This document shows, in pieces, positions 57,843-62,978 of a stretch of 64,000 bases of DNA (position 1 is its first letter; the number at the start of each line of letters is the position of its first letter). The position numbers and the translations under genes were made by a program. The stretch is from positions 1 through 64,000 of the forward strand of contig CADCVE010000001.1 of NCBI GenBank assembly GCA_902806065.1, read 5' to 3'. The DNA is from an uncultured Rubrobacteraceae bacterium. Its GTDB lineage: Bacteria; Actinomycetota; Rubrobacteria; Rubrobacterales; Rubrobacteraceae. A model generated the notes under the pieces. The model searched no databases and was not told the DNA's origin. It saw nothing but the letters and a program-made list of their open reading frames with translations.

Positions 57843-58511
57843 CTACAGTCTCTCCGCGAGCTGTTGCAGATCCTCGACGACGAGGTCGGGTTCTATCTCC
57901 CAGGGATCGAATCGGGCGTTGGGGTTGCGTTGGACCCAGGCTGACTTCAGGCCAGTGGCCTTGGCCCCGATCACGTCGAACGGATTGCTGGAGATGAGCC
58001 ACGTCTGCGAGGGTTGCGTGCCGAGTCGGCGGGCCAGATACTCATAGACTTGCGGGTCCGGCTTGAAGGTCTTGAGATCATCCACGCTGATCACCTCTTC
58101 GAGGTGAGGGAGGACTCCGGCTCGATCCAGCAACGTCCGGGCCGTCGCCTCGACCCCGTTGGAGAAGGCTACGAGCCTGTGGCCCCCGGACTTCAGCGCC
58201 TCAAGGCCGGGGATTACATCAGGAAACGGCCTCAAGTTCTGATACTCCTCCATGAGCCGCTCCTGATTCTCCCCGGAGATCTCCGCACCAAGGACATTCG
58301 CGGTGTGCGCTAGCGCCTGGCGGGTGCAGACGCCGAAGTCTTCGTAGCGCTGCATCAGGGCGCGCCGGAAGGTGTACTCGATCTGCTTCTGGCGCCACAG
58401 CTCGGAGAAGTGATCCGCTAACTCCTCCCCGACGATGGGCCGCAGATGCTCGTTCATCTCCAGCGGATCGACCAGCGTGCCATAGATGTCGAAGCCGATT
58501 GCCTCAGACAT
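57843..58511 (-). CDS. haloacid dehalogenase-type HAD hydrolase (class II-like)
   Basis: 222 residues. The nucleophile Asp8 is in GFDIYGTLVDP. Other motifs are LVAFSNGVEAT (Ser/Asn), Lys in LKTFKPDPQVYEYLAR, and ISSNPFDVIGAKATGLKSAWV, the order of (S)-2-haloacid dehalogenases. Actual activity on haloacids needs assay, as many relatives are phosphatases. Confidence 0.88.
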   Translation of the reverse strand: MSEAIGFDIYGTLVDPLEMNEHLRPIVGEELADHFSELWRQKQIEYTFRRALMQRYEDFGVCTRQALAHTANVLGAEISGENQERLMEEYQNLRPFPDVIPGLEALKSGGHRLVAFSNGVEATARTLLDRAGVLPHLEEVISVDDLKTFKPDPQVYEYLARRLGTQPSQTWLISSNPFDVIGAKATGLKSAWVQRNPNARFDPWEIEPDLVVEDLQQLAERL

Positions 58512-58672: not shown

Positions 58673-59482
58673 CTACCCGGCCACCACCGGACGGCACACC
58701 TTGCAAGGCCTGAAGCCAGCATTTATCGCTGCCTTCGCCGAGCGAAAGCGTCGATGGTTCTCGGGCTTTATTCTTCTGGCATTGCGGCAGGTGGCGTGGC
58801 AGAAGATCCCCGTGGTCGGCGTGGCGAGGTACGGTGCGTCTGCCAACTCCCCGACCGGCACGCCCTCTCCTTCGAGCAACCCGACCTTCTCTTCCGCGCC
58901 GAAGGCGTAGCTGCCAGTGGTGCCATCGTTCCTGACTACCCGGTGGCAGGGGACGAGAAGGGGCACCGGGTTGGTCGCCATCACTGTCCCCACGGCGCGG
59001 GAAGCCTTCGGCGAACCGGCCTCGCGTGCCACCCAGGCATAGGGTCTGACCTCGCCGCGAGGAATCCCCTTTACTACCTCCAAAACCTGCCGCTGGAAGG
59101 TTGTCGTCCCCGAGAGGTCCATCGGGACTTCGATCTTCTCACCGGCGAGCGCCCCGGCAACCCTTTGGGCGAGCCTGCGCGTATGTTCGTCCTCGCCCCA
59201 CGAAAGGATGCGGCCGAAGCGCTCTCTATAGCGTCGGGCGAACCTCTTGGGTGAGGCGTCCTTCCCCACCACGCGTACACCCCTCTCGCTCACCCCGACG
59301 TAGACCTCGCCCAGAGGCGAATCACAGGAGAAGAGGCGGTCGGTCCCGCGCGCGAGCATGCGCTCTACCGGTTCGTCCGAAGCCCCCCTGAGCCTCAGGC
59401 GTGAGGCAGCATTCCCTAGCAACCCGGCCATACGCTCTTCGCTTCCCTCTTCGCTCAACCTTCGCGACTCCTCGTATTTCAT
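58673..59482 (-). CDS. O6-alkylguanine alkyltransferase fused to a C-terminal Ada zinc domain
   Basis: 269 residues. The alkyltransferase module (about 50-215) has the acceptor Cys179 in LLVPCHRVVRNDG, the RAVGTVMATNPV helix and the Tyr/Trp of VRPYAWVAREAG. After it comes a complete Ada-type zinc domain (about 225-265) with Cys228, Cys232, Cys260 and Cys263 (FCHATCRN, FRPCKVCRP). In E. coli Ada the zinc domain comes first. The ~48-residue N-terminal extension is of unknown role. The gene abuts the sigma factor stop exactly (TAGATG). Confidence 0.92.
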   Translation of the reverse strand: MKYEESRRLSEEGSEERMAGLLGNAASRLRLRGASDEPVERMLARGTDRLFSCDSPLGEVYVGVSERGVRVVGKDASPKRFARRYRERFGRILSWGEDEHTRRLAQRVAGALAGEKIEVPMDLSGTTTFQRQVLEVVKGIPRGEVRPYAWVAREAGSPKASRAVGTVMATNPVPLLVPCHRVVRNDGTTGSYAFGAEEKVGLLEGEGVPVGELADAPYLATPTTGIFCHATCRNARRIKPENHRRFRSAKAAINAGFRPCKVCRPVVAG

Positions 59483-60085
59483 CTAGCGGCCTCCTTTTTC
59501 CTCTGATTCGTCTAACAGTGCGCCCAGCCGTCTTAGACCCCGGCGTACCAGGGTTTTGCATGTGTTCTCCGGCCAGCCGGTCACCTCCGAGATCCCGGCG
59601 TAAGGCAGGTCTCCCAGGTAGCGGAGCGACACGGCCACCCGCTGTCGTTCGGACAACCGCCTCAGCGCCTCCAGTGTGTCCAGCCAGGCTTCCCTGTTCG
59701 AGCCGGAAGTAGTACTCGACCCCGCCCCGAAACGCTCGTCGGGCTCCGGTGGCTCCGCCACGGATAACTCCCGGCGACTATCTCGCCAGACGTTGCGCAC
59801 CACGTTCAGGACGATACGGTATAGCCAGGGGCGTAAAGAGAGGGTTCCGATGCGTTCCTTCGGATATTTACCCAGAGCGACGAAGGCTCTCTCGAAGGCT
59901 TCCTGCACCGCGTCCTCGGCGGCCGGCGCATCGCATAGCAAGCCCAGAGCATACCGGTGGAGTTCGGCGTGATGCCGCTCCACCAGCTCCCGAGGTGCAC
60001 CGGGGTCTCCTTCCGCCAGGCGCTCTGCCAGCGGTTCCAGACTTCCTACACCATTCTCATTACCGATTTCGCTCTCCATACTCAT
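59483..60085 (-). CDS. ECF-type RNA polymerase sigma factor
   Basis: The ATG at 60085 gives 200 residues; no strong ribosome site, and ATG 60079 is possible. Region 2 is GAPRELVERHHAELHRYALGLL with EDAVQEAFERAFVAL and LRPWLYRIVLNVVRNVWRD; region 4 is LSERQRVAVSLRYLGDLPYA with GISEVTGWPENTCKTLVRRG. Its TAG is followed directly by the ATG of the alkyltransferase gene, so the two are one transcript. No classic anti-sigma gene is adjacent. Confidence 0.92.
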   Translation of the reverse strand: MSMESEIGNENGVGSLEPLAERLAEGDPGAPRELVERHHAELHRYALGLLCDAPAAEDAVQEAFERAFVALGKYPKERIGTLSLRPWLYRIVLNVVRNVWRDSRRELSVAEPPEPDERFGAGSSTTSGSNREAWLDTLEALRRLSERQRVAVSLRYLGDLPYAGISEVTGWPENTCKTLVRRGLRRLGALLDESEEKGGR

Positions 60086-60398
60086 ACAACACCGTAGTAG
60101 TCCAAAGAGTTTCACACTGCCCAAAGAAAATCCGCATCACCGCCGCGTAACCGGCTTGCATGTCCCCAACTACGTCCCGTACGTACGCCTCGACGAGCCA
60201 GACCTGGCCGACCTCGATCCCTAAGAGGTCGAGGTTACAACAGCCCTCAGGGTAGCTGGGTAAGTCCAGGAAGGAGTTTGTAACGAGCTTGCTTCGCTGC
60301 TACACTAACTATAGCAACGAATAATTCTATACAGCCCCTGCTTTCCAGGCGGAGCCATCCGACTTTGGGAAGCCACACTAGACCGGAGGAGGCAAGCG
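60086..60398 (+). other. divergent intergenic region with ribosomal-operon promoter
   Basis: No gene. It holds upstream regions for the sigma factor (minus) and the rpsF operon (plus), including the likely promoter at 60278-60306. Confidence 0.5.
60278..60306 (+). promoter_or_regulatory. likely promoter of rpsF-rpsR-rplI
   Basis: TTGTAA, a 17-bp spacer and TACACT, about 90 bp before the rpsF start. Each box matches consensus at four of six positions. Confidence 0.45.
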
Positions 60399-60749
60399 AT
60401 AGACACTTACGAAGTTATGCTCATAGTAATACCCGAACTCGACGAGGAACAGGTCGAGAGCACAGTTGGGCGGTTTAAGACCGTCATACAGCGCACGGGT
60501 GGCGAGGTTGGGGGCGTGAACAACTGGGGCCGGCGTAAGCTCGCATACCAGATCGACCACCGCGCCGATGGCTTTTATTACGTGATGGAGTTTACGGTCG
60601 GTGAGCGGACACTACTCGAGTTGAAGCGCATTTTGCGCGTCTCGGACGACGTCTTGCGTCACATCATCGTGAAGCTCCCGCCGACGTACGCTCACCAGCC
60701 GCTCCCCGAGGAGGCCTTCGAGGAAGAATCGGTCGAGGCGGCGGGTTAG
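60399..60749 (+). CDS. rpsF: 30S ribosomal protein S6
   Basis: The conserved N-terminus DTYEVMLIVIPELDEE is encoded from 60402, directly after an ATA at 60399-60401. The sequence GGAGGAGG ends 6 nt before that ATA, ideal initiation spacing, so the start appears to be ATA. The first ATG (60417) would remove the first beta strand and lacks a ribosome site at normal spacing. The product is 116 residues and includes RRKLAYQIDHRADGFYYVME. First gene of the S6-S18-L9 cluster. Confidence 0.93.
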   Translation: MDTYEVMLIVIPELDEEQVESTVGRFKTVIQRTGGEVGGVNNWGRRKLAYQIDHRADGFYYVMEFTVGERTLLELKRILRVSDDVLRHIIVKLPPTYAHQPLPEEAFEEESVEAAG

Positions 60750-60772
60750 TTTTTGAGAGAGGAGAATAGTTA

Positions 60773-61024
60773 ATGGGTAAGCGTAGAACCAGTCCCTCTC
60801 GCCGGGAGCGTCCGGTCAAGAGCAAGCCGTGCGTGTTCCACAAGGAGAACATCGCGTACGTCGACTACAAGGACTACAACATGTTGCGCAAGTTCATCTC
60901 GGATCGCGGCAAGATCCGCGCACGCCGGGTGACGGGTTTGTGCCCGCAGCACCAGCGCGAGGCGGCGGTGGCTATAAAGCGCGCCCGCGAGATGGCGCTC
61001 TTGCCATACGTCGTCGGACGTTAG
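60773..61024 (+). CDS. rpsR: 30S ribosomal protein S18
   Basis: 83 residues. [20 protein letters not shown] and [20 protein letters not shown] are the S18 core. It binds S6 in the 30S platform. GAGAGGAGAATAGTTA precedes the ATG. The ssb gene usually found between rpsF and rpsR is absent; only 23 bp separate them. Confidence 0.96.
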
Positions 61025-61037
61025 GAGGTACTTGGCT

Positions 61038-61487
61038 ATGCAGGTAATCCTCAAGCAGGATGTAGAGAAGATCGGGCGCCGGGGCGACATTATCGAGGTG
61101 AGCCGCGGCTACGTGCGCAACTTCCTCGTGCCGCGTGGCCTGGCCGAGATGGCCACGCCCTCCAAGCTCGAAGAGGTCCGCCGCGAGATGGAGGAGGCCG
61201 AGGAGCGCGACCAGCGCATGGCCGAGAGGGCCAACGAGATCGCCCAGACCCTCAATAAGAGCGTGATCACGATTGAAGCGCGTACCGGCGAGGATGAGCG
61301 CCTCTTCGGCTCCGTCACCGCCGCGAATATCGCTTCGGCTATCGAAAAGGCCCGCGACGTCCGCATAGACAGGCGCCGCATCAAACTCGAAGAGCCCATC
61401 AAATCCCTCGGTACCCATCAGGTCCCCGTCCAGGTTCACGGCGATATCGAGGCGAGCGTCAAGGTCATCGTAGTTCCGAAGCTGTAG
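61038..61487 (+). CDS. rplI: 50S ribosomal protein L9
   Basis: The ATG at 61038 (GGAGG 9 nt upstream) gives 149 residues, the standard length. MQVILKQDVEKIGRRGDIIE and GYVRNFLVPRGLAEMATPS are the N-domain; the long central helix is rich in Glu/Arg. Ends with a C-domain of normal size. Confidence 0.96.
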   Translation: MQVILKQDVEKIGRRGDIIEVSRGYVRNFLVPRGLAEMATPSKLEEVRREMEEAEERDQRMAERANEIAQTLNKSVITIEARTGEDERLFGSVTAANIASAIEKARDVRIDRRRIKLEEPIKSLGTHQVPVQVHGDIEASVKVIVVPKL

Positions 61488-61537
61488 CAGGACTGTAGCT
61501 GAAGTACAGCTTTATCTGAAGCCTAAATCAGAGCCTC

Positions 61538-61568
61538 AAGGACTCCGTCTTGTAACGGGGTCCTTTTT
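61538..61568 (+). terminator. terminator between rplI and dnaB
   Basis: AAGGACTCCGT and ACGGGGTCCTT (one wobble) followed by TTTTCG, the best T-tract of the terminators seen. It separates dnaB from the ribosomal genes. Confidence 0.8.
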
Positions 61569-61586
61569 CGTTCATGCTGGGAGGTT

Positions 61587-62978
61587 ATGGAGCGTAGGGG
61601 GAGGGTCCGGGGAGTCCCATCGGGGGTGGCTGGCGAGGCTGGCGCCCTCGTACCGCCCCATGACCTGGATGCGGAGCGGGCGGTAATAGGGGCGATGCTC
61701 GTCTCCGAGGCGGCGGTCTCGGTGGTTGGGGAGATGGTCGTCGCGGAGGACTTCTACTCCGAAACGCATCGCGTCCTATATGGGTGCATGATGCGCTTGT
61801 ATTCCAGGGGCGAGCCCATAGACCAGCTTACGCTAACTAACGAACTTCGGAGCGTGGGCGAGTTCGACCGCGTCGGGGGGAGGCAGTACGTCTTCCGGCT
61901 CGTCGAGAGCGTGCCCACGGCCGCCAATGCTGCCCGTTACGCGGAGATAGTGCGCGGCAAAGCGTTACTTCGGGCCGTAATAGACGCTGGAGACCGCATC
62001 CAGCAACAGGCCTTCGCCGAACCCGACGACGTCAGCACGGCGCTCGATGCCGCCGAGCAGTTAATCTACGGTGTCTCAAACCGGCAGATGAAGGAGCATC
62101 TCGCGCCCGTATCCGATCTCGCTCCAAGTGCTCTGGAGATGATTCAACGCCTCTACGAGCAAGAGGGAGAGGTCACCGGCGTCGAGAGCGGGTTCGAAGA
62201 CCTCGATCGCCTTACTACAGGTTTCCACAAAAGCGACCTCGTAATCCTTGCCGCAAGGCCTGCCATGGGCAAGACGGCTCTAGCCCTTAACATTATCTGG
62301 CATGCTGCGGCGGTCAAGGATCTGCCGGTGGCGATCTTCTCCCTGGAGATGAGCAAGGAGCAGCTCGTCCAGCGTCTCATAAGCCAGACCACGCGGATAC
62401 GGACGCAAGACTTGAGGAGCGGCAACGTCAAGGCGGAGGACTGGCCCAAGCTCGTGCGCGGGGTGGCGGAGGTGGCTAAAGCGCCGATCTGGATAGACGA
62501 CTCCGCCGGCATAACCCTTATGGAGATGCGCGCCAAGGTCCGGCGTCTCGCCAGCCGCCTGAATGCCCAAGGCGAGATTCCCCTCTCGCTCGTCGTCGTC
62601 GACTACCTGCAGCTAATGGTGGGGCAGGGGAACCGTTCCGAGAACCGCCAGCAGGAGATATCGGAGATCAGCCGCGGCCTGAAGGTGCTCGCCCGCGACC
62701 TCGACGTCCCTGTACTCGCCATCGCGCAGCTCAGCCGCGCCGTCGAAGCCCGCCATGACAAGCGCCCCATGCTCTCCGACCTTCGAGATTCAGGCGCCAT
62801 AGAGCAGGATGCGGATATGGTGATGTTCCTCTACCGCGACGAGTACTATAACCCCGACTCTGACGACAAGGGCATAGCAGAGGTAATCGTCGGCAAGCAC
62901 CGTAACGGTCCCACCGGCAGAGAGCAATTGGCCTGGCTCGAGCAGTACACCAAATTCGCTTCGCTCGCCCGCAGGTAG
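61587..62978 (+). CDS. dnaB: replicative DNA helicase
   Basis: 463 residues. The N-terminal collar begins HDLDAERAVIGAMLVSEAAV. RecA-like motor: Walker A ARPAMGKT (223-230), FSLEMSKEQLVQRLI, Walker B VVVDYLQLM, and H4-type DLRDSGAIEQDADMVMFLYR. No intein interrupts it. A hexameric 5'-3' helicase of the replisome. GGGAGG lies close to the ATG. Confidence 0.97.
   Translation: MERRGRVRGVPSGVAGEAGALVPPHDLDAERAVIGAMLVSEAAVSVVGEMVVAEDFYSETHRVLYGCMMRLYSRGEPIDQLTLTNELRSVGEFDRVGGRQYVFRLVESVPTAANAARYAEIVRGKALLRAVIDAGDRIQQQAFAEPDDVSTALDAAEQLIYGVSNRQMKEHLAPVSDLAPSALEMIQRLYEQEGEVTGVESGFEDLDRLTTGFHKSDLVILAARPAMGKTALALNIIWHAAAVKDLPVAIFSLEMSKEQLVQRLISQTTRIRTQDLRSGNVKAEDWPKLVRGVAEVAKAPIWIDDSAGITLMEMRAKVRRLASRLNAQGEIPLSLVVVDYLQLMVGQGNRSENRQQEISEISRGLKVLARDLDVPVLAIAQLSRAVEARHDKRPMLSDLRDSGAIEQDADMVMFLYRDEYYNPDSDDKGIAEVIVGKHRNGPTGREQLAWLEQYTKFASLARR

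Follow-up and report, generated by a model that had tools for sequence, protein, structure and literature searches.

The Ada transcription factor is the textbook basis of the bacterial adaptive response to alkylation, and Escherichia coli Ada, once methylated, switches on transcription by acting on RNA polymerase, sigma included. Class I zinc anti-sigma factors with cytoplasmic sensors (RsiW-type domain, ChrR, and RsrA) are among the described systems nearest to the one discussed here. A link between extracytoplasmic function (ECF) sigma factors and alkyltransferases is also on record: a 2022 review reports that 6-O-methylguanine DNA methyltransferases adjoin ECF122 sigma factors, with a reference from Cellulomonas, and lists ECF122 among the groups without a cognate anti-sigma factor, its mechanism yet to be characterized (PMC8999054).

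The window that we analyzed, a stretch of 64,000 nucleotides from an uncultured Rubrobacteraceae bacterium, carries an ECF sigma factor gene followed directly by a gene for an alkyltransferase with a C-terminal Ada zinc domain, here called Ogt-Ada. From sequence comparisons, Ogt-Ada is most likely a derived anti-sigma factor with a suicide alkyltransferase as its sensor, because relatives carry an anti-sigma domain in their N-terminal extension and because the anti-sigma-Ogt form has a basal place in the tree. The features of the locus are as follows.

60085 to 60114, minus strand: predicted autoregulatory ECF promoter, with -35 TGAAAC (60114-60109), a 16-nt spacer, and -10 GTGTTGTA (60092-60085)
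59483 to 60085, minus strand: gene for the ECF sigma factor, with regions 2 and 4; first ATG at 60085, likelier start ATG at 60079, stop TAG at 59485-59483
58673 to 59482, minus strand: Ogt-Ada, a protein of 269 residues and the proposed derivative of an anti-sigma factor
59321 to 59482, minus strand: N-terminal extension, covering residues 1-54 and reaching to the first Ogt strand; two helices, at about 5-30 and 38-46, on predicted secondary structure only
59321 to 59386, minus strand: segment (residues 33-54) that hhalign and an alignment pair with helix 4 of the anti-sigma domain in relatives
58850 to 59326, minus strand: O6-alkylguanine transferase domain, residues 53-211, predicted acceptor Cys179 in PCHR (codon 58946-58948)
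58688 to 58831, minus strand: C-terminal Ada zinc domain, residues 218-265, with Cys228, 232, 260, and 263

Like ECF122, the pair places an alkyltransferase gene in the conserved neighborhood of an ECF sigma gene; unlike the pair, ECF122 is listed without an anti-sigma factor, and the review's description, on which this comparison is based, mentions no Ada zinc domain. Ogt-Ada resembles E. coli Ada in uniting an alkyltransferase and a methylphosphotriester zinc domain in one protein with intact acceptor cysteines, and presumably also in serving as an alkylation sensor, whereas its zinc domain sits at the opposite end, the AraC part is missing, and a dedicated sigma factor is present. With the RsiW-type, ChrR, and RsrA proteins, its family shares an N-terminal anti-sigma domain with another domain behind it, and the pair shares the layout of their operons, with the sigma gene first and probably self-driven. 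It differs from them in that the sensor is a suicide DNA-repair enzyme and in that the window protein has lost the zinc motif, with only what looks like the last helix recognizable.

The sigma protein contains Sigma70_r2 and Sigma70_r4_2 only, both over the curated Pfam cut-offs, and it also exceeds the TIGR02937 sigma70-ECF cut-off and so qualifies as an ECF sigma factor. Its stop codon TAG (59485-59483) abuts the ATG of Ogt-Ada (59482) in the same frame, and the contiguous TAGATG junction described in the original prediction is indeed seen, on the minus strand. That prediction had also described an intact C-terminal Ada zinc domain and a missing AraC-type part, and Pfam agrees on both: DNA_binding_1 is found at residues 129-208 (9e-29) and Ada_Zn_binding at residues 218-265 (8e-12), with all four methyl-acceptor-site zinc cysteines of classical Ada present, while the AraC helix-turn-helix (HTH_18) is absent from Ogt-Ada. 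The window protein therefore does not fit the architecture of the classical Ada regulator, an N-terminal Ada zinc domain followed by an AraC helix-turn-helix. DNA_binding_1 together with the PCHR active site places it among the Ogt/MGMT proteins, for which alkyl transfer is predicted, and both acceptor sites are intact (Cys179; zinc Cys228/232/260/263). Among solved structures it is closest to the E. coli Ada alkyltransferase (1sfe), and its tail to E. coli N-Ada. The sigma start had been placed at ATG 60085; since this codon overlaps the -10-like element, translation more likely begins at the following ATG, 60079, which would make the mRNA leaderless or nearly so.

A haloacid-dehalogenase-like hydrolase gene (window 57843-58511, minus strand) lies 161 nt downstream of the pair in the same direction. 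On the other side, adjoining the operon (60417-62978, plus strand), are genes that read, from their translations judged by eye, as ribosomal proteins S6, S18, and L9 and the replicative helicase DnaB. The ssb gene often sits between those for S6 and S18; the translations in the window, again judged by eye, show none there.

We searched for the pairing with the alkyltransferase alone as the query, both in whole genomes of the same bacterial family and in about 85,000 species genomes. Besides the window's own genome, 15 genomes of the family have full-length homologues, and in all 16 the sigma gene is immediately upstream. The wide scan returned 72 homologous loci (L032-L103), in Actinomycetota (Rubrobacter, Nonomuraea, Thermobifida, Nocardiopsis, and Acidimicrobiia) and in Chloroflexota, Thermomicrobiota, Gemmatimonadota, Latescibacterota, Zixibacteria, Acidobacteriota, and Rokubacteria. 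An ECF sigma gene, recognized by a sigma profile, is directly upstream in 70 of the 72, across about ten phyla, with the remaining two truncated at a contig end; it is upstream of none of the eight classical Ada loci recovered by the same scan and none of 11 ordinary ogt genes of the phylum. The original prediction had named separation of the two genes in relatives as a point against itself, and across genomes they proved to be neighbors. In 84 of 85 pairs the sigma and Ogt genes are -19 to +16 nt apart, and 46 pairs overlap by 4 nt; with spacing this tight, translational coupling between them is very likely. Sigma-first order with overlapping genes is also the arrangement of known sigma/anti-sigma operons.

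The N-terminal extension is longer in relatives from Latescibacterota, Gemmatimonadota, and Zixibacteria and in the Chloroflexota members that lack the Ada domain. Several of these extensions (L039, L058, L097, and L100-L102) contain an H-x3-C-x2-C motif; Pfam's zf-HC2 passes its cut-off of 22.2 bits in L097, at 26.6 bits, and falls below threshold in L039 and L101. When a profile of these long extensions was compared with all PDB sequences, the top match was the anti-sigma-W factor RsiW, at a modest E of 0.0015 and aligned through the last helix, followed by ChrR (E 0.17). Given the motif, the zf-HC2 match in L097, and RsiW as the best PDB match, these long-extension relatives are very probably anti-sigma-alkyltransferase fusions. 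Such a protein is found in 13 of 16 genomes around the group of the Zixibacteria member. Within one clade the zinc motif decays, from HLEVCDAC (L039) through HLERCADI (L040) to QLEACADS (L044).

The last helix of the anti-sigma domain is matched in register, ahead of the Ogt domain, by the reduced extensions, including that of the window protein. Window residues 33-54 match helix 4 with an hhalign probability of 75% (E 2.5e-5 for a single comparison, over a short segment). The window protein itself has no H-x3-C-x2-C, no zf-HC2, and no Pfam anti-sigma match, and about one helix of the domain is recognizable; its extension looks like one that retains the last helix of the anti-sigma domain. Class I anti-sigma domains in known complexes use helix 4 to bind sigma2, and since zinc binding is missing from about 44% of them, the lack of the motif does not disqualify the protein from this class (PMC7406223). 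With the extension profile, no separate anti-sigma gene was detected beside the pair's sigma gene. As a device to model both proteins together, we also ran AlphaFold2 on a single chain of the sigma protein, the TAG read as Q, and Ogt-Ada; the two runs gave no confident interface, at pTM 0.60 (alignment misaligned at the junction) and 0.53 (alignment clean), and are not counted as evidence on binding.

In a maximum-likelihood tree of the alkyltransferase domain, the sigma-linked family separates from unlinked Ogts (95/90). Its first split sets the anti-sigma-Ogt form without Ada against every other member (96/81), and a second anti-sigma-bearing clade is nested inside the family. The simplest history would be an anti-sigma-Ogt ancestor that gained the Ada zinc domain, followed by repeated loss of most of the anti-sigma domain. 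In other actinobacterial families, three loci (L019, L022, and L024) have an ECF sigma gene adjoining an Ogt without the Ada domain. We rejected these as members and left them out of the family counts; their Ogts group with unlinked Ogts in the tree, and their sigma genes are preceded by a different promoter-like element, CTCAC ... CGTT, read by eye. Independent recruitment is possible for them, perhaps of the ECF122 type.

The acceptor residues are strongly conserved. PCHR is present in all 82 distinct sigma-linked alkyltransferases, and the zinc site, C-x3-C ... C-x2-C, in all 74 sigma-linked homologues with a complete Ada tail; poor conservation of the zinc cysteines had been another point named against the original prediction. 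The Ada tail is absent from L100-L102 (Chloroflexota) and L103 (Nocardiopsis), which keep the sigma partner. The original prediction had proposed that alkylation of the zinc-site cysteine frees or activates the sigma factor. Because sigma-linked members can lack the tail, a trigger other than the zinc cysteine has to be possible somewhere in the family, and the Ogt active-site cysteine may be enough in some members. The broader idea of a methylation-sensing sigma/anti-sigma pair has gained strong indirect support from conservation of the pair and of the zinc cysteines, from the autoregulatory form of the promoter, and from the class I anti-sigma domain that relatives carry in place of the window protein's extension.

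Upstream of the sigma start, most lineages share an element consisting of GC or GA followed by AAC, 16 nt, and GTGTT or GGGTT, which often continues with nTA and in the best cases ends a few bases before the start codon. At 42 of 85 loci it has the strict form, where dinucleotide shuffles would give 0.05, and at 55 of 85 a relaxed form (AAC-N16-GTGTT type), where they would give 0.65. The 3.75-Mb genome has a single TGAAACN16GTGTT site, the window's own. Among ten Nonomuraea genomes (10-14 Mb), TGCAACN16GTGTTnTA occurs exactly once, before the genome's own sigma gene, in eight and has no site at this stringency in the other two. Relaxed searches in relatives for a wider regulon returned the self sites plus matches at the level of a reversed-pattern control, except for two local sites in one genome (G003; L005/L034, L122, and L124), before a SnoaL-like gene upstream of the sigma gene and before a second ogt downstream of the pair. 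Because the element is conserved before the sigma gene and nearly unique genome-wide, the operon is probably self-driven and the predicted regulon looks tiny. That the sigma factor recognizes this element is suggested by its position and conservation.

We propose that in undamaged cells the N-terminal anti-sigma remnant of Ogt-Ada, mainly helix 4, holds the ECF sigma factor, a step for which homology argues. Upon damage, alkyl groups would move from DNA to the suicide cysteines, from O6-alkylguanine to Cys179 and from phosphotriesters to Cys228; the alkylated protein would be irreversibly spent and let the sigma factor go. Free sigma with RNA polymerase would then transcribe its own promoter, yielding more sigma and fresh Ogt-Ada, which would repair DNA and re-capture sigma once the damage is gone. 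Release and feedback are suggested by the logic of the circuit and the known chemistry of Ada and Ogt. As a whole, this explanation, a self-contained alkylation-response switch with Ogt-Ada as a derived class I anti-sigma factor, is one we consider reasonably probable. We give somewhat better than even chances to its most specific form, in which the switch reads DNA lesions directly, inhibitor, sensor, and repair enzyme are one suicide protein, and every repair event is registered as one anti-sigma molecule irreversibly lost.

We know of no described system in which one suicide repair protein serves as an anti-sigma reader of lesions. No paper on an alkyltransferase with an anti-sigma role was found in the literature searched, whose scope did not include the main ECF classification paper. 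The association between ECF sigma factors and methyltransferases has in part been described before. Judged by the sources consulted, three points seem to be new: the proposed descent of the partner from an anti-sigma protein, the promoter element shared across lineages, and the way the pair alternates with classical Ada. The pair may be a widely distributed alternative to the Ada response, apparently resting on sigma-factor release, and, if so, a bacterial alkylation response on a different principle from textbook Ada. It would offer a testable mechanism for an association listed without an anti-sigma factor or a mechanism, and its family appears to show an anti-sigma domain decaying to a single helix. 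As a compact, one-promoter alkylation sensor, it also lends itself to work in cultured species, Thermobifida fusca or Nonomuraea for example.

The chief competing explanation is co-activation, in which Ogt-Ada is no inhibitor and its methylated form binds DNA or sigma and aids the holoenzyme, as in E. coli Ada. The Ada zinc domain with all four cysteines and the known action of methylated Ada on RNA polymerase are in keeping with this, as is the distribution of the two systems. The pair is present in 16 of 36 genomes of the bacterial family, with its promoter at a contig end in one more (G030), and another Ada-zinc-domain gene of the classical kind in 14 of 36, the checked example being AdaZn-AraC-AlkA. 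No genome of the 36 contains the two together (hypergeometric p about 3e-6 to 1e-5, without correction for kinship), and the pair and the classical system look like alternatives in this family. The AdaA-AlkA type of these sister species resembles the pair in its presumed adaptive alkylation response and differs in its architecture and in having no sigma factor. Against co-activation, Ogt-Ada has no AraC-type DNA-binding part, the Ada-less relatives L100-L103 keep their sigma partner, and the relatives' anti-sigma domain points to inhibition; we regard it as unlikely. One locus in a relative (G006:C607:15417-16144) is unlike both systems: immediately ahead of an ogt gene lies a frame of about 100 aa with an Ada zinc domain by itself.

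Quite unlikely, in our judgment, is a plain operon in which the sigma factor is controlled otherwise and Ogt-Ada is merely a co-expressed target. Operons often unite a regulator with its targets, and the second ogt in G003 has the same promoter element; yet the partner is always this one Ogt type across about ten phyla, several carry the anti-sigma domain, and no other regulator gene is constantly present. Chance adjacency without a functional link, which nothing favors beyond what a single genome would show, is rejected as virtually impossible given sigma neighbors in essentially all homologous loci (70 of 72). The anti-sigma reading of Ogt-Ada is the one we prefer.

Further genes recur near the pair in some lineages. 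In several relatives from the same family an EamA-type transporter gene directly follows Ogt-Ada: in L009 (2278-3162, no gap), and similarly in L010, L012, L014, L016, and L017. In Nonomuraea, at about 1.3-3.3 kb in loci such as L037, L038, and L045, another sigma gene is conserved some 3 kb upstream of the pair, and the gene after it gives a weak anti-sigma-domain match.
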